A stretch of DNA of 64,000 nucleotides from Hymenobacter radiodurans (GTDB taxonomy: Bacteria; Bacteroidota; Bacteroidia; Cytophagales; Hymenobacteraceae). The notes under the pieces are model-generated. The model had not been told where the DNA came from, ran no database searches, and saw only the letters and a program-made list of their open reading frames with translations. The position numbers were made by a program, and so were the translations under genes. Positions 4,020 to 14,636 of this stretch are shown here, piece by piece. Location of the stretch: assembly GCF_004355185.1 (NCBI RefSeq), contig NZ_CP037922.1:2698001-2762000 (forward strand), given 5' to 3'. How positions within the stretch are numbered: position 1 is the first letter of the stretch; each line of letters begins with the position of its first letter.

Positions 4020-6479
4020 ATGCAAAGTGCTTTACCTACTTCGGCCGCGGGCCGACTAGGTTATTTGCTTATCCTGCTCCTCCTGACCTCTCAATCGGTG
4101 CATGCGCAAACCGGGTCTGGCCTGAGTAGCGTTACAGGTCGGGTGCAAAATGCAGTTGGAGGCGTACCCATACAATTCGCCAACGTAACGCTGCACCGGG
4201 CGGCCGACTCTGTGGCTGTCAAAACAGAGTTCAGTGATGCCCAGGGGGCTTTCCGGCTGGAGCAGGCAGTTGGGGGGCTTTTTTGGTTTCCGTTACTCAG
4301 GTTGGCTTCACCCGTTATTGGAGTCCGACCTTCGAGTTGACTGCCGGGGGGCAAAATTTAGCCGACATCGTCCTGCAAGCCAGTGAAGCTACCCAACTCA
4401 AGGAGGTAACCGTTGTAAAGCAAAAGCCTCTGTATGAGCGCTTGGCCGACCGTACAATTGTGAATGTGGAGAGCTCAACGCTGGCAGCCGGCAGTTCTTC
4501 GCTGGATGTACTGACGCGCGCTCCGGGCATAACAGTGGGAAGCAATGATAACCTGGCGCTACGCGGCCGGCAGGGCCTGCTGGTCTTGATTGATGGAAAG
4601 CGCCAGCCCATGACCGGCTCTGAGCTATCGGACTACCTGCGTGCGTTGCCCGCTGAGCAGCTCAGCAGTATCGAACTGATCACTAATCCTCCTGCCAAAT
4701 ACGATGCCCAGGGTGGAGCCGGTATTATTGCTATCAATCTTAAAAAAGATCAGCGGCAAGGCACAAATGGTACTGCAAATGCCGCCTATGGCCGCGGCCA
4801 GTATGGCAAATTCACCACAGGGATCACCCTCAATCATCGGCAAAAGAAAATTAATGCTTTCGGATCGTATGCGTATGCAGATCGGGAAAACTTCCAAAAA
4901 CTTACTTTCGACCGTTTCTTCTATGACGCAGGAGTACTGCAAAGCAGCAGCATCCAACGCAACAATGGCCGCAGCCACTTGCAGTCGCACACCTGGCGGG
5001 GTGGGCTCGATTATTCCATCTCCAAACGCACAGTTGTAGGAGTAGTGGTGGGCGGCTTGGATAGCCGCTTTCCAGGTTTTGCCACCAATAGAACGCTGTT
5101 GTTTGACGCCCAAAGTCAGCCACTGCCCACGTACCGCTCCACCATCAATCGGCGACCCTATAACCCGAGCATCACGAGCAATCTGAATTTCAGGCATTCA
5201 TTTGCCGACTCCAGCGGCGCTCCTACACTCTCGGTTGATATTGACTACGACCGATTTAATCGCTATGCTGATCAGGAACTGACTACCTTCTTCAGCGAGC
5301 CCGGTCGATCGGCGGTCATATTGGATGGTGATCAGGCAGGCAACCTGACCATTCAGTCGGTAAAGGCCGACTACACACGCAACCTACGCCGTGCTACTCG
5401 CTTGGAAGCAGGCTTTAAAGCCACCCTGATTGAATCTGATAATAACTTGGTATTCGAGGATATTATAGATGGAATACGAACGCCGAATCTGAATTTCAGC
5501 AACCATTTTCGCTATGAAGAAAACATCAATGCAGGTTATGTGACTCTGACGCGCACTCTGCCGAATCTTACAATTTCAGCGGGCTTGCGGGGGAGCAAAC
5601 GAATGTGGAAGGTCAGCAAGCGATAGGCAACGAAGGCTTCGACCGCAACTATTTTCAACTCTTTCCTAGTGCCAGCGTCCAGCGCAAGCTTTCAGACAAG
5701 CACGAGTTGAGCCTATCTCTCAGCCGCCGAATCAATCGGCCCACGTACAACCAGCTCAACCCGTTCCGATCTTACGTAGATGCCACCTCTTACCGCACCG
5801 GCAACCCCTATTTACGGCCTGAAACCAGTTATAATATTGAACTCACGCATACTTTCAAGGAGAAGTTTAGCGCCGCGCTAACATATAGCATCACCGATCT
5901 GCCGATCATTAATGTGGTTCAGCCAGCAGTTGAAGGCGGCTTTTTTGTCGTGAACCGAGATATCAATCTTCGTACGCTCCAGTATTACGCCCTAACCTTG
6001 ACAGTTCCCTTAGAGCCAACTAAATGGTGGAGCGTCTACAACAACCTCTTATTGTACTACAACCACTTTGAAGGAAAAGTGGCCGAGACAATGCCCCCCG
6101 CACTTGGGTGACAGTGAATGTAAGCAGCAACAGCACGTTTAGCTTTGGCCATGGCTGGACGGCTGATCTCAGTGGCACATATCTGGCGCCGGAGCGCTAC
6201 GGATATGAGCGCCTGCGAGCCCGCGGGCAGATAGGAGTCGGCATCCAGAAGCAGCTTTGGGCCAATAAGGCGACGGTGAAGCTGAGCGCAACCGACCTCC
6301 TTTATACGAGCCCCGTTCGCTCCACCTATGCCTACGCCAACTTTGAGGATACCTTCTTCAATCGGCAGGATACACGGGTCGTGACGCTATCGTTTACTTA
6401 TCGCTTTGGCAACGATAAGCTTGCCCCTATACGGAGGCGGCAGAGTGGGGCCGAAGACGAAAAGCGCCGCGCTCAGTAA
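4020..6479 (+). CDS. TonB-dependent-like outer membrane receptor, beta-barrel family 3 (frame broken three times)
   Basis: This outer-membrane protein of about 820 residues starts with a signal peptide (MQSALPTSAAGR..., hydrophobic LLILLLL, cleavage expected after SVHA). A carboxypeptidase-regulatory-like domain follows (GRVQNAVGGVPIQFANVTL), then a TonB-receptor plug (LDVLTRAPGITVGSNDNLALRGRQG) and a barrel with alternating aromatic strands ending in SFTYRFGN. This is the arrangement of the outer-membrane beta-barrel family 3 group. The frame breaks at 4272-4284, at the G run 5589-5593 and at the C run 6094-6099. One extra base at each restores a continuous protein (for example GLRGEQTNVEG at the second and PPRTWVTVN at the third). 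The ligand is unknown; no SusD partner is adjacent. Confidence 0.85.
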
Positions 6480-6520
6480 TTCCCTTATATAAAATCAAGT
6501 CCAATACTTTTTGATTAGCG

Positions 6521-6570
6521 GTCCAATGCAGAGAGATAACCTCTAATTCTGCGTTGGACCTATCTTTTTT
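6521..6570 (+). terminator. Rho-independent terminator of the receptor gene
   Basis: A 12-base stem (gtccaatgcaga paired with tctgcgttggac, one G-U pair) is followed by a T-rich tract ending in ctttttt. It lies 42 bases after the receptor stop and does not use the GGGGGGC motif. The region 6571-6778 after it is strikingly A+T-rich and has no supported gene; it presumably carries the promoter of the cassette that follows. Confidence 0.8.
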
Positions 6571-6778
6571 ATGTGCTATTTGATGGATACTTAAACTTAT
6601 ATAACTATTTTATTATCAGCATCTTACTTTAATAAATCGATATCATTATCAATAAATTTATGTTTTATCAACCTTAACTGCAATCCACCTAAAGAAAAAG
6701 TTATAAAAATTTGCCAAAAATTTGGATTGTCAATCGTAGCTATTGTATGTTTGAATGATATTATTGAATATAAATTAC

Positions 6779-7474
6779 ATGAAGGAGTATACAATAGTTG
6801 ATTGGAGTGCTATTAAAGTAGTTATTTTCGATGTCGATGGTACTCTATATACACAGTCGCGGCTCAGGAAGCGAATGTTTTATGCGTTGATTAAGCACTA
6901 CGCCTTAAGGCCTTGGCAAGCAAAAGATCTGATGATTCTGCAGCGTTTTAGAGTTGAGCGCGAGAAGCGTGCTGGATATGCCGGTGGAAACTTGGAAAAG
7001 GCCCAATACGAATGGTGTGTTGAGAAAGGAGGCTACTCACCGTTAAAGGTCAGACAAGTAGTGGAGCAATGGATGTTCACCTTCCCCAATCCATACCTGG
7101 CACAATGCACGTATCCTGGAACGCATAGCTTTTTTGCTAAACTCAAGAGTAAAGGAATTAAGGTTGCTATCTACTCCGATTATAAAGCACACGATAAGAT
7201 GCTCGCGATGGGTCTCGAGGCTGACCTTATCGTTAGCTCAACAGATCCTGAAATAGATCGACTCAAGCCAGACCCAACCGGGCTACTTTACATCGCTAAC
7301 AAGCTTCAGGTATTACCAGAGCAATGCCTATTTATTGGCGACAGACAAGAAATGGATGGTGAATGCGCCATAAGAGCTGGTATGCCATACCTCATCCTAG
7401 ATAAGAAACCCTTCAATAAATTTAATTTTTATCAACAGCTCGAACATACCCTCACCGTCCCTATTACTGCCTAG
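6779..7474 (+). CDS. HAD-superfamily hydrolase (probable phosphatase of a lipid-linked pentose pathway)
   Basis: This soluble HAD hydrolase of 231 residues has motif I FDVDGTLY near residues 16-23, motif II in AIYSDY, the motif III lysine in RLKPDP and motif IV IGDRQEMDGECA. The cap is a small helical insertion between motifs I and II. The ATG at 6779 (MKEYTIVDW) is chosen; an in-frame start lies eight codons upstream. The stop is only 11 bases from the UbiA gene, so the two are surely one operon. Phosphatases paired with phosphoribosyl-type UbiA enzymes remove the 5-phosphate from polyprenyl-phosphoryl-5-phosphoribose in pentose donor synthesis. That role is inferred from context; the fold itself says only phosphatase. 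Base composition is A+T-richer than the housekeeping genes around it. Confidence 0.85.
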   Translation: MKEYTIVDWSAIKVVIFDVDGTLYTQSRLRKRMFYALIKHYALRPWQAKDLMILQRFRVEREKRAGYAGGNLEKAQYEWCVEKGGYSPLKVRQVVEQWMFTFPNPYLAQCTYPGTHSFFAKLKSKGIKVAIYSDYKAHDKMLAMGLEADLIVSSTDPEIDRLKPDPTGLLYIANKLQVLPEQCLFIGDRQEMDGECAIRAGMPYLILDKKPFNKFNFYQQLEHTLTVPITA

Positions 7475-7485
7475 CAACAACCGTT

Positions 7486-8526
7486 ATGAGTAACACACTA
7501 TCCGTGCCTTCAGAGAGCACCGCTACAAAAGGCCAAGCCACAATTCCTGCAGGCCTAAGGGATTACGTAGCTATAGCCCGTCCCGATAACTGGGCGAAAA
7601 ACGTTTTCATGGTACCGGGAATGCTTTTCGCGGTAATAGTATTTGCCCCCCAGATCACTACTGCCCTGTTATTGAAAGTAATAATGGGAGTAGCAAGTAC
7701 ATGCCTTATTGCCTCGGCCAATTATGTTATCAACGAGTACCTCGACGCTGAATTTGACAAGTTTCACCCCTTAAAGAAGGCCAGAACTTCGGTAGTCAAG
7801 GTGGTAAATCCAGCTATCGTTTACTCCGAGTGGTTTCTACTAGCCGTTGTGGGCTTGAGCCTCGGATACCTCATTTCGATTCCATTTATGGTGGTATCGG
7901 CCTTCCTGCTCTTCATGGGTATCATGTACAATGTCCGTCCCATCCGTACGAAAGAGCGTGTTTATCTGGACGTTTTGTCCGAATCAGTAAATAACCCCAT
8001 CCGATTCGTTCTAGGCTGGTTTATAGTCGCTCCCGCCCTATCGTTACACGATTTCACTCCCCTATCCTTCTTTAGTGCCCTTCCGGCTACCAGTATTATC
8101 GTCGCCTACTGGATGGGGGGCGCATTCCTGATGGCTACGAAGCGCTTCGCCGAATATCGCCTCATCGATAATCCTGAGCTAGCTGGCCTTTATCGGAAGT
8201 CCTTTAAGTATTATACCGAGCATAGCCTGCTTATTTCTATGTTCTTTTATGCGCTTACGTCAGCGTTCTTCCTTGGTATTTTTCTGGTAAAAAACAGAGT
8301 AGAGCTGCTCGTTAGCTTCCCCTTCTTCGCGCTCTTGTTTTCCTGGTACTTACGTATTGGCCTCCTAGAGGACTCCCCGGTTCAGGGCTCAGAAAAGCTT
8401 TATACCCGCAAGTGGTTTATGCTCTATGTGGTATTGTTCTGTATTCTGCTAACGGGCTTGATGTTCGTAGATATTCCCTGGCTACACCAGCTTTTACAGG
8501 ATCATTATAATCTCAACAACCGGTAG
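7486..8526 (+). CDS. UbiA-family transferase resembling decaprenyl-phosphate phosphoribosyltransferase
   Basis: This integral membrane protein of 346 residues has about eight or nine hydrophobic segments. The first UbiA acidic motif reads NYVINEYLDAEFDKFHPLKK, where the NExxDxxxD core binds Mg and phosphate. The HP.KK.R continuation is typical of the branch that includes mycobacterial Rv3806c (5-phosphoribosyl pyrophosphate plus polyprenyl phosphate). The second motif region YLDVLSESVNNPIRFVLGW and the later ATKRFAEYR (KR.aE in that branch) agree. The likely reaction is transfer of phosphoribose onto a polyprenyl phosphate in the cytoplasmic membrane; menaquinone or haem prenylation is less likely because those branches lack these features. 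The gene is flanked by the HAD gene (11 bases) and a GT-C gene (31 bases). Confidence 0.8.
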   Translation: MSNTLSVPSESTATKGQATIPAGLRDYVAIARPDNWAKNVFMVPGMLFAVIVFAPQITTALLLKVIMGVASTCLIASANYVINEYLDAEFDKFHPLKKARTSVVKVVNPAIVYSEWFLLAVVGLSLGYLISIPFMVVSAFLLFMGIMYNVRPIRTKERVYLDVLSESVNNPIRFVLGWFIVAPALSLHDFTPLSFFSALPATSIIVAYWMGGAFLMATKRFAEYRLIDNPELAGLYRKSFKYYTEHSLLISMFFYALTSAFFLGIFLVKNRVELLVSFPFFALLFSWYLRIGLLEDSPVQGSEKLYTRKWFMLYVVLFCILLTGLMFVDIPWLHQLLQDHYNLNNR

Positions 8527-8557
8527 ATACTCCTCCCTGGTTTATTAGGCCCTCCTA

Positions 8558-10227
8558 ATGTCACTTACCACATTGGCCACGCCTGCTTCGGGGGTGCGTG
8601 AGCCTGCGCCTGCCAGCCCCGCTACGGCGGCTCACTACCAGCGCCTTGCCCTGTATTTAGTATTAGCTATAGGCATAGGCTTTCGCCTCTTCCATTTCTT
8701 TTACAATCGTTCATTATTCATCGACGAGTTATATCTGAACATTAGCCTTGTCAAGCTTAATTTTTGGGAATTGGCCACCCAACCCTTAGCCTATGAGCAA
8801 AAGGCACCTATTGGCTATCTCTGGACCGTTAAGCTATGCGTTCTACTTTTCGGCAAAGGCGAAAAGGCTCTACGGCTTTTCTCTTTGTGCTGCGGTATCA
8901 GTGCACTGTTCGCCTTTGTTCCCGTCGCTCGCTTTTATCTAAAGTCCTGGGGTGTGGTACTCGCAGTCGGCTTGCTTTCCCTATCATGGGCAACAATTTA
9001 CCACTCCGTCGAAGCAAAGCAGTACAGCGCCGAACTCTTGGCGACGGTTCTAGGCCTCCTACTTTATACTAAATATCACAACGCTACTCGCCTGCAACCG
9101 CTGTTGCTCTGGGGGCTTGCTGGGGGCTTTTGTTGTGGTTTTCTTTCTCGCTGATCTTCGTGCTTGCTGGCATAGCTTCAGCTCTTAGTCTCAAGGCAAT
9201 TCTTGAGCGCAACTGGAAACGCTTCTTTACTTATCTCATTTCCTTTTCGCTCTGGCTGTTCAGCTTTAGCTTGCTTTACATCCTGTTTCTGAGCAAATAC
9301 CATCAGTCCGGCTGGCTCATCGATTTCTTTGAAAAAGCCTACGATGGGTTCACGCCCTTGAAAGTGACCTCTTTTGATGATATTCTTTGGTTTATTAAGA
9401 AGTCATACAACATGCTCTACCACCCTCTTGGCGTGTTATTGCACCTTGACGAAAATATTGCTAGCTCCAGCGTTAAATTCATTCTAAAATTAGGCTGGTT
9501 AGAAGGGCTGTTTCTTGTATTCGGAATGATTATGCTGTTCCGATCAGATAGATTTAAATTCTTTCTTCTTTTCTTACCTATTCTTATCACCTTCCTTGCA
9601 TCAGCTTTTAAATTTTACCCTATTTTCGATAGATTCATTTTATTCTTAGCGCCATCATTAATTCTATTCCTTGCTTTTGGGGCAGAAAAGTTTATAGAAA
9701 TATTTTCTTTAAAATATTGGGGGCTTTATTAACTGTATTTTTCTTAATAAGCCCCGCCTTGGCAAATTCAACTCGGCATATTTTTTATCCAAGCACTTTT
9801 CTTAAACTATCAAACTCTACTGAGCGCGAAGGAATTCTATATATCAATGAGCATTTCAAGGAAGGTGATGCTGTCTATGTTTTCTGGAATATGCGCCATG
9901 CCTACGATTACTACAAAGAAGCCTATGGCTTGAAATACACTGCCGTTAGGGGAGCTACGTAAAAAGCACATCGACTGATCCGGACGATTATCTACGAAAT
10001 CTCTCACCTGATTTTAACAATTTTGAAGGCAAAAAAGGCTTTGGTATATATATAACACTAATAACAAAGATGATATAGGAGAATATGTAGGTCAGCCAGC
10101 TTGGTATAGTAAAAAAGGCTATGTTGCTCCTTTATCAGTGGAACAAGAATTAGGCAAGTTTGGAAATAAAGCTTTTCGCCATAAAATATTTTATCAGCAC
10201 ATTATCTTGTATGAGTTAAAAAATTAG
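8558..10227 (+). CDS. GT-C (family 39-like) membrane glycosyltransferase (frame broken)
   Basis: This is a polytopic membrane protein of about 557 residues. The N-terminal region has the GT39-like layout: an acidic first-loop motif FIDELYLNIS, then QKAPIGYLWTVKL and many hydrophobic helices, with a C-terminal periplasmic part. Such enzymes use polyprenyl-phosphate sugars on the outer leaflet. The frame breaks at the G runs 9122-9126, 9719-9723 and 9949-9952, and at a short T run near 10040-10042. Adding one base to each gives a continuous protein up to the stop at 10225-10227 (reading AGGLLLWFSF, KYWGALLTV and AVRGSYVKS over the first three joins). The second half is markedly A+T-rich. It is the third gene of the HAD-UbiA operon and the natural user of its lipid-linked sugar; the acceptor is unknown. 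Confidence 0.75.
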
Positions 10228-10273
10228 CTTGTAATAAGCACAGCTAAACTTTAGACATCTCATTATTACTCAT

Positions 10274-10308
10274 AAAAAAAGGCAGGCTAGTATAGCCTGC
10301 CTTTTTTT
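10274..10308. terminator. Bidirectional terminator between the GT-C gene and porX
   Basis: A 9-base stem (ggcaggcta and tagcctgcc) is flanked by seven A on the left and seven T on the right. It can therefore terminate both convergent transcripts: the glycosyltransferase operon on plus and porX on minus. Confidence 0.9.
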
Positions 10309-10321
10309 ATGAACTAAGTGA

Positions 10322-13597: not shown

Positions 13598-14636
13598 ATG
13601 GAATTTACTGTAGGCCAAATAGCCGAAGTACTAAGTGGAACTGTCGAGGGCGACGCGGCAATACGCATCGACCGGCTGGCAAAGATCGAGGAAGCGCAGG
13701 CTGGCTCTTTGGCTTTTCTGGCCAATGCCAAATATGAGCCCCACTTATATACAACGGGTGCTTCCGCCATTATTGTTAGCAAGAAGCAAGCGTTGAGGCA
13801 ACCAGTAACGGCGGCCCTAATCCGCGTCGATGACCCGTATTTGTGCTTTAGCCGCTTGCTGGAGTTTTATCAGCAGACCACGCGCACAGGTCGACGGGGC
13901 GTAGAAGAGCCCGCATTTTTGGGGCCAACTCCACTATCGGGGAAGGGCACTTCCGGGGGCTTTTTCCTACATCGGGGAAGGCTGCACCATCGGCCGCGAC
14001 GTGCTCATCTTCCCCCACGCTACCATTGGCGACCGGTGCCGCATCGGCGACGGCACTATTATTTACGCTGGGGCCAGAATTTATGCGGATACCGTTATTG
14101 GAGCGCGCTGTACCGTGCACGCGGGCGCCGTACTAGGCTCTGATGGCTTCGGATTTGCCCCCCAGCCCGACGGTTCTTACCGGGCTATTCCGCAAATCGG
14201 TAATGTGGTTCTGGAAGACAACGTCAGCATTGGGGCCAATACGACCATCGACTGCGCTACCATGGGCTCGACTATCATCCGGGAAGGCAGCAAAATTGAC
14301 AACCTAGTGCAGATAGCCCACAATGTGGAGATTGGACGCCACACGGTGGTGGCCGCGCAAACGGGTATTTCGGGCTCGACCAAGATTGGCGACTACTGTG
14401 TGCTGGCGGGCCAAGCCGGCCTGGCGGGCCACCTGACTCTAGCTAACCGCACGACCGTAACGGCGCAGTCGGGAGTTGGCAAATCGATAAAGGAGGAAGG
14501 TCAGTTTCTGCAAGGCTCTCCGGCGTTCAATCTGCGCGATAGTTTGCGTGCCAACGCTATTTTCCGGCATCTGCCCGAGCTTGCGCGTCGCCTCGACGCG
14601 CTAGAAGGCAACAAAAGCGCAACAGAAAAGCTTTAG
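13598..14636 (+). CDS. lpxD: LpxD: UDP-3-O-acylglucosamine N-acyltransferase (frame broken twice)
   Basis: LpxD adds the second hydroxyacyl chain to UDP-3-O-acyl-glucosamine in lipid A synthesis. The protein of about 346 residues starts [19 protein letters not shown], the usual N-terminal domain with [15 protein letters not shown] left-handed beta helix follows, with many hexapeptide repeats ([33 protein letters not shown]), then GSPAFNLRD and a C-terminal helix. The frame breaks at the G runs 13921-13924 and 13955-13959. One added base in each restores [10 protein letters not shown] and [14 protein letters not shown], exactly the hexapeptide pattern. Because lpxD is essential where lipid A is made, these breaks are almost certainly assembly errors. 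It is followed by lpxC-fabZ after 138 bases. Confidence 0.92.

Follow-up and report, generated by a model that had tools for sequence, protein, structure and literature searches.

A predicted polyprenyl-phosphate ribofuranose cassette in Hymenobacter radiodurans with a UbiA-type enzyme of a separate clade

Organization of the cassette

This study deals with a 64,000-nucleotide stretch of the Hymenobacter radiodurans genome (NZ_CP037922.1, positions 2,698,001 to 2,762,000; hereafter the window) and with a three-gene cassette on its forward strand, which probably makes and uses polyprenyl-phosphate-linked ribofuranose. The source genome measures 4.92 Mb in 2 contigs. The nearest named proteins and contigs are those of Hymenobacter, close to H. 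qilianensis, to which the nucleotide identity is 84 to 93% over the aligned pieces of the window's first 20 kb.

The first gene (6779..7474, start possibly at 6755) encodes a HAD-type phosphatase (PF00702, 2.9e-18), predicted to act on the 5'-phosphate of a lipid-linked pentose. After 11 bases it is followed by the gene of a UbiA-superfamily membrane enzyme (7486..8526; PF01040, 8.6e-16), the predicted polyprenyl-phosphate phosphoribosyltransferase, and after a further 31 bases by a GT-C glycosyltransferase gene (8558..10227), whose first piece matches PMT_2 (PF13231, 9.4e-08). The original prediction, which was made from the letters of the window alone, had considered the three genes as one operon. 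The intact open reading frames (ORFs) of HAD and UbiA and the short gaps agree with this, whereas the third gene has no intact GT-C ORF.

The cassette was also found to be richer in A+T than its surroundings, as had been claimed. The G+C fraction is 0.44 for 6779-10227 and 0.521 for the whole window; only nine of 606 segments of the same length are equally A+T-rich, and as these start at 6400-7300, all nine overlap the cassette. A hairpin with a T-rich tail lies on the forward strand at 6520..6560, 3' of the upstream TonB-receptor-like gene (-24.6 kcal/mol, z -5.44), and an A/T-flanked hairpin lies at 10270..10312 between the convergent GT-C and response-regulator-like genes (-30.0 kcal/mol, z -9.17). 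Both are terminator-like and fold far more stably than shuffled sequence, which favours the proposed pair of terminators, but the consensus scan for promoters and terminators picked up neither of them and gave no excess over shuffles.

The UbiA enzyme and its clade

The first motif (NExxDxxxD...HP.KK.R) and the KR.aE segment, from which a phosphoribosyltransferase had been proposed, are both present in the window UbiA. The residues of the Mg and pyrophosphate site (R22, N73, D77, K87, R90, Y138 and K143) are kept, together with K28 and Y70. The same residues are kept in all rows of the 81-locus set (the window and 80 kept of 388 found), except that R22 and K28 are seen in 79 rows, with gaps in the other 2. 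Positions 74, 135 and 157 carry Glu, Gly and Asn (the E/G/N signature), and a P-x-R-x-K loop is inserted beside the changed pocket residues 135 and 157.

The closest PDB relative, by sequence and by fold alike, is 8j8j, a structure of mycobacterial Rv3806c, and on its fold the window UbiA is counted with this enzyme; next in fold come structures of archaeal prenyltransferases. In the profile search the phosphoribosyltransferase model NF008977, one of the Rv3806c-type models NF008976-NF008978, gave 65.9 bits, the HAD-UbiA fusion model NF006088 (PRK08238) 52.4 bits across the UbiA part and the haem o synthase model 26.9 bits. KRxxE is found in none of the five UbiA paralogue rows of the same genome, two of which are fragments. 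On these scores and the presence of KRxxE, a place in the menaquinone or haem O branch was rejected. The use of KRxxE to discriminate from menaquinone, haem and aromatic prenyltransferases is our own reading, and it is no strict test because eight classical-type rows have KRxxD; the count of the first motif among HAD-UbiA fusions is circular, as the rows were chosen by that motif. From its residues and fold, the window UbiA is predicted to transfer the phosphoribosyl group of phosphoribosyl pyrophosphate (PRPP) to polyprenyl phosphate.

In a quick maximum-likelihood tree of 76 rows, of the 38 taken as relatives, 37 form one clade with a support of 96 in the Shimodaira-Hasegawa-like approximate likelihood ratio test (SH-aLRT). 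This clade stands apart from the classical clade (34 rows, SH-aLRT 98), which holds Rv3806c, the HAD-UbiA fusions and the NF008977 rows. The remaining relative, a second copy in Pedobacter hartonius, groups in the classical clade. The outgroup branches were flagged as long, too long to root the two clades against each other. Members of the separate clade are found in Bacteroidota, Pseudomonadota, Bacillota, Planctomycetota, Verrucomicrobiota, Cyanobacteriota, Nitrospinota and Thermodesulfobacteriota; outside Cytophagales and Sphingobacteriia they are mostly metagenome bins, the assignment of which was taken as given. The database labels seen were 'UbiA family prenyltransferase' and 'HAD family hydrolase', and one automatic source gave decaprenyl-phosphate phosphoribosyltransferase. 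Among the papers listed by our literature search, none was recognised as describing this clade, though Figs. S11-S12 of PMC11127046 may hold members.

The HAD partner and gene neighbourhoods

The HAD gene immediately precedes the UbiA gene in all 20 fetched loci, which come from 19 other genomes, and the HAD motif residues show no variation across 20 aligned relatives. A strong UbiA match was obtained in 20 of 149 related genomes, and the HAD (E up to 1e-30) is present in precisely these 20 and in none of the other 129. The GT-C family (E up to 1e-60) is present in all 20 and in 6 others. The strict partnership and the intact motifs support the HAD protein as a likely phosphatase, in line with the proposed removal of the 5-phosphate.

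Of the fetched loci, 12 have a GT-C of the window's family beside the HAD-UbiA pair, 4 have another large membrane protein, all of one family, 1 has yet another such protein and 3 lack both kinds. Five genomes (G009, G023, G039, G057 and G065) carry the window-family GT-C away from the UbiA locus; the GT-C match is distant in G050 and G062 and in pieces in G000.

Over the 81 loci, a HAD of the same family lies within 3 genes of UbiA in 59 by hidden Markov model (HMM) and in 2 more by tblastn, and a HAD of another type in 3 further loci; at L146 and L161 a HAD overlooked by the HMM-based label was seen on later inspection. Within the same distance, the window-family GT-C is found in 44 loci (the window's broken copy left out), GtrA in 16, and a GT-C or other large membrane protein in 67, the latter class being defined by hydropathy count only. 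Of the 127 genes neighbouring UbiA at 26 more distant loci, 124 were analysed by Pfam, with PF00702 in 12 proteins, PF12710 in 6, GtrA in 8 and PMT_2 in 10, classes which may overlap. The links of GtrA and GT-C to the UbiA of this clade recur in several phyla. In 20 of the 81 loci, nearly all from Pedobacter, a GMC-type oxidoreductase gene (PF05199, about 480 aa; e.g. L111:8984-10426) stands directly 3' of UbiA with a small ORF after it; the substrate that this enzyme oxidises might be the lipid-linked sugar or the glycan.

The glycosyltransferase gene

The GT-C gene reads as 8558-9154 (198 aa) and, in a different frame, 9130-9732 (200 aa), with more stops up to about 10224. Its relative in H. 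roseosalivarius is a single ORF of 557 aa with a GT-C fold. A G run near 9120 is the site of the first break, which H. qilianensis has as well. Two more genes, named by eye, are broken up into several frames: the TonB-receptor-like one at 4283-6479 and an LpxD-like one at 13598-14636. This is also the case in H. qilianensis and points to errors in the sequencing of homopolymers or to lesions that the two genomes share. LpxD is normally essential.

Since the GT-C gene is not the only one of the window to be split, sequencing error has to be considered as the cause of its breaks, and a pseudogene and an assembly error both fit the data. It is possible, and compatible with the ribofuranose reading, that the cassette is decaying in this strain, the donor still being made and its lipid being used by another GT-C or left unused. 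The break common to H. qilianensis and the further stops seen here favour decay, whereas the intact HAD and UbiA genes and the split LpxD-like gene, which makes an assembly error plausible, speak against it. The proposed role of the GT-C protein as the user of the product is likely, but its gene is broken in this assembly, whereas relatives have it intact and with a GT-C fold.

Search for the DprE epimerases

DprE1/DprE2-like epimerases had been called absent from the vicinity, and the check over the whole genome also gave no match of their grade. For DprE1, none of the 20 cassette genomes exceeded the cut-off of 500, the best match being 49.9 bits against 398.6 for the classical locus L183, itself under the cut-off. 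For DprE2, the best match in the own genome was 73.3 bits against 183 for L184. The own genome has 33 short-chain dehydrogenase/reductase (SDR) matches to the DprE2 model, none above its cut-off. When the ORFs of the 81 loci were compared by BLAST (E 1e-4) with two queries each for DprE1 and DprE2, no DprE1 turned up and only a single weak SDR match was seen, in L147; this search covered no other SDR types. A PF04030 match was rejected as DprE1, its best NCBIfam model being FAD-linked oxidoreductase (168.5 bits, under cut-off) against 53.8 bits for DprE1. In the absence of DprE1/DprE2, the sugar is expected to remain ribose unless a different epimerase converts it.

Three classical loci of the phylum were viewed over 16-17 kb. 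DprE1 and DprE2 stand at UbiA in L183 and, with a small ORF in between, in L184; DprE1 of L183 and DprE2 of L184 were checked by profile.

Occurrence and mobility

The cassette UbiA occurs in 20 of 149 relatives at E below 1e-100 and in 4 of 296 genomes of the phylum at E up to 1e-40, the own genome being counted in both, and the cassette neighbourhoods are of several different kinds. UbiA was found by tblastn in 27 plasmid records, of which 16 are from Rhizobium. All four UbiAs of the plasmid regions viewed carry the E/G/N signature: two Rhizobium plasmids have the order UbiA-HAD-GtrA, a Rhodobacter plasmid codes for a large protein resembling HAD together with UbiA and GtrA, and on a small plasmid of Paracoccus UbiA has no annotated HAD with it. 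No match at E 1e-5 was obtained among 50,697 phage records. Horizontal transfer of the cassette, which had been suggested earlier, is supported by the patchy occurrence, the differing neighbourhoods and the plasmid copies in other genera; the terminators are no evidence for it. The 9.1 kb plasmid p9146 of Paracoccus aestuarii (L196) carries a MobV relaxase, a BrnT/BrnA toxin-antitoxin and a clade UbiA beside a large unnamed protein.

Comparison with known systems

In Citrobacter, a HAD-UbiA fusion makes farnesyl-phosphate ribose from PRPP and a GT-C then transfers the ribose, while an extra SDR gives xylose instead (Kelly et al. 2024, PMC11127046). The three-component pentofuranose systems of Citrobacter youngae O1/O2 resemble the cassette in their UbiA-type synthase, HAD phosphatase and GT-C, the gene of the last being broken in the present assembly, and the ribose version has no epimerase. 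The original prediction had regarded such a ribofuranosylation system as new, and this can no longer be held, since the type of system was already shown there in 2024. The HAD is fused to UbiA in Citrobacter, whereas it is a separate gene in the Hymenobacter cassette. The Citrobacter cluster encodes a four-helix transporter called MATE-type, whereas the cassette has no adjacent GtrA. The Citrobacter GT-C founds GT136 and carries a carbohydrate-binding module. Unlike the Citrobacter synthase, the Hymenobacter UbiA lies in a clade other than that of Rv3806c.

In case of Rv3806c (8j8j/8j8k; PMC10994848), the fold, the Mg and pyrophosphate site, K28, Y70 and the KRxxE loop are alike, whereas the cassette UbiA has E/G/N at 74/135/157, the inserted loop, 22% identity in the structure alignment, a separate clade and no arabinan pathway. 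The HAD-UbiA fusions (NF006088, PRK08238) share the domain pairing with the cassette, but they are fused, their HAD is of another type (by eye) and their UbiA part belongs to the classical clade. The phosphoribosyltransferases of L183 and L184 come from the same phylum as the cassette, and the UbiA of L183 has a HAD-like gene nearby; unlike the cassette, both have DprE1 and DprE2 beside UbiA. A literature search on Hymenobacter ribose polysaccharides gave no mention of Hymenobacter among the matches listed.

Proposed mechanism and alternatives

Gene order, co-occurrence, residue conservation, clade structure, fold matches and the lack of DprE1/E2-grade matches were established by computation. 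From these, the cassette can be proposed to make and use polyprenyl-phosphate-linked ribofuranose, to which we give a probability of about 0.68. On the cytoplasmic side, UbiA would move 5-phosphoribose from PRPP to polyprenyl phosphate, as suggested by the kept PRPP-site residues, the fold and the nearest relative. The HAD protein, given its strict partnership and intact motifs, would then strip the 5'-phosphate. A flippase would move the lipid outward, for which GtrA is a candidate in a minority of relatives, and the GT-C would finally put the ribofuranosyl group on a surface glycan.

A number of results weigh against this reading. The window UbiA is probably of the phosphoribosyltransferase type, but it does not belong to the Rv3806c branch to which it had been assigned: it lies outside the classical clade, and its NF008977 score is far under the cut-off of 234. 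In all 81 clade rows Q135, which contacts ribose O3, is replaced by Gly and Y157, which contacts the 5'-phosphate, by Asn, and position 74 is Glu, as against Asp in the 47 classical-type rows. The fold match to the phosphoribosyltransferase exceeds those to ordinary UbiA prenyltransferases by a modest margin. The Fisher p values of the co-occurrence (3e-25 and 7e-20) overstate independence, as the genomes are related, and at 17 of the 81 loci, some of them on cut contigs, no HAD was recognised within 3 genes of UbiA. No GtrA lies beside the cassette, the only one of the genome being far off at C2:37347-37694 (MATE and SMR genes were not searched). L182, one of the three classical loci, likewise has no DprE genes, and their lack therefore does not set this clade apart. 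Lastly, the GT-C gene is broken in this assembly.

It is unlikely, though worth weighing, that the same architecture handles another sugar, either through a phospho-sugar diphosphate donor other than PRPP or through epimerisation or oxidation of the ribosyl lipid before transfer, e.g. by an unlinked SDR. The invariant G135 and N157, which replace the ribose O3 contact and one of the 5'-phosphate contacts beside the inserted loop, the GMC-type genes of the 20 loci, the many SDRs of the own genome and the single SDR used by Citrobacter O2 (PMC11127046) are in its favour. On the other side, the pyrophosphate, Mg and K28/Y70 sites are retained, and the BLAST over the 81 loci gave no more than the one weak SDR match. 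It can further be speculated, with rather low probability, that the E/G/N clade is a second, independent sugar-loading route on polyprenyl phosphate, i.e. a UbiA subfamily that branches deeply, spans several phyla, moves horizontally and has a dedicated HAD, and whose altered pocket would take a non-PRPP donor and give a novel lipid-linked sugar. An ordinary aromatic, quinone or haem prenyltransferase with unrelated HAD and GT-C neighbours is highly improbable: the UbiA fold, the archaeal fold matches and the bare UbiA assignment by Pfam would suit it, but the KRxxE and haem o synthase results, the HAD co-occurrence of 20/20 against 0/129 and the GtrA and GT-C links in several phyla do not.

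If the ribofuranose reading holds true, the use of a lipid donor to ribofuranosylate surface glycans reaches beyond the apparent range of the classical enzyme family, and ribose or another pentose is predicted on the glycans of cassette-bearing Hymenobacter, Pedobacter and plasmid-bearing Rhizobium strains. The general route has been known since 2024; the present cassette employs a branch of the loading enzyme that stands apart, has drawn little notice and is present also in other phyla. The E/G/N signature with the HAD partner offers a simple genomic marker for the cassette. With its altered pocket residues the enzyme might accept another donor, a question which the two swapped residues make directly testable, and the broken GT-C leaves the last step in this strain in doubt.

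Other observations

In some Bacteroidota (L064, L072 and L078), classical phosphoribosyltransferase genes adjoin a methylmalonyl-CoA mutase-like gene (by eye). In the Lachnospiraceae loci L156, L163 and L168, UbiA and HAD seem, from Pfam tallies and gene order, to lie 3' of a row of PASTA-kinase, RsgA and ribulose-phosphate 3-epimerase genes.
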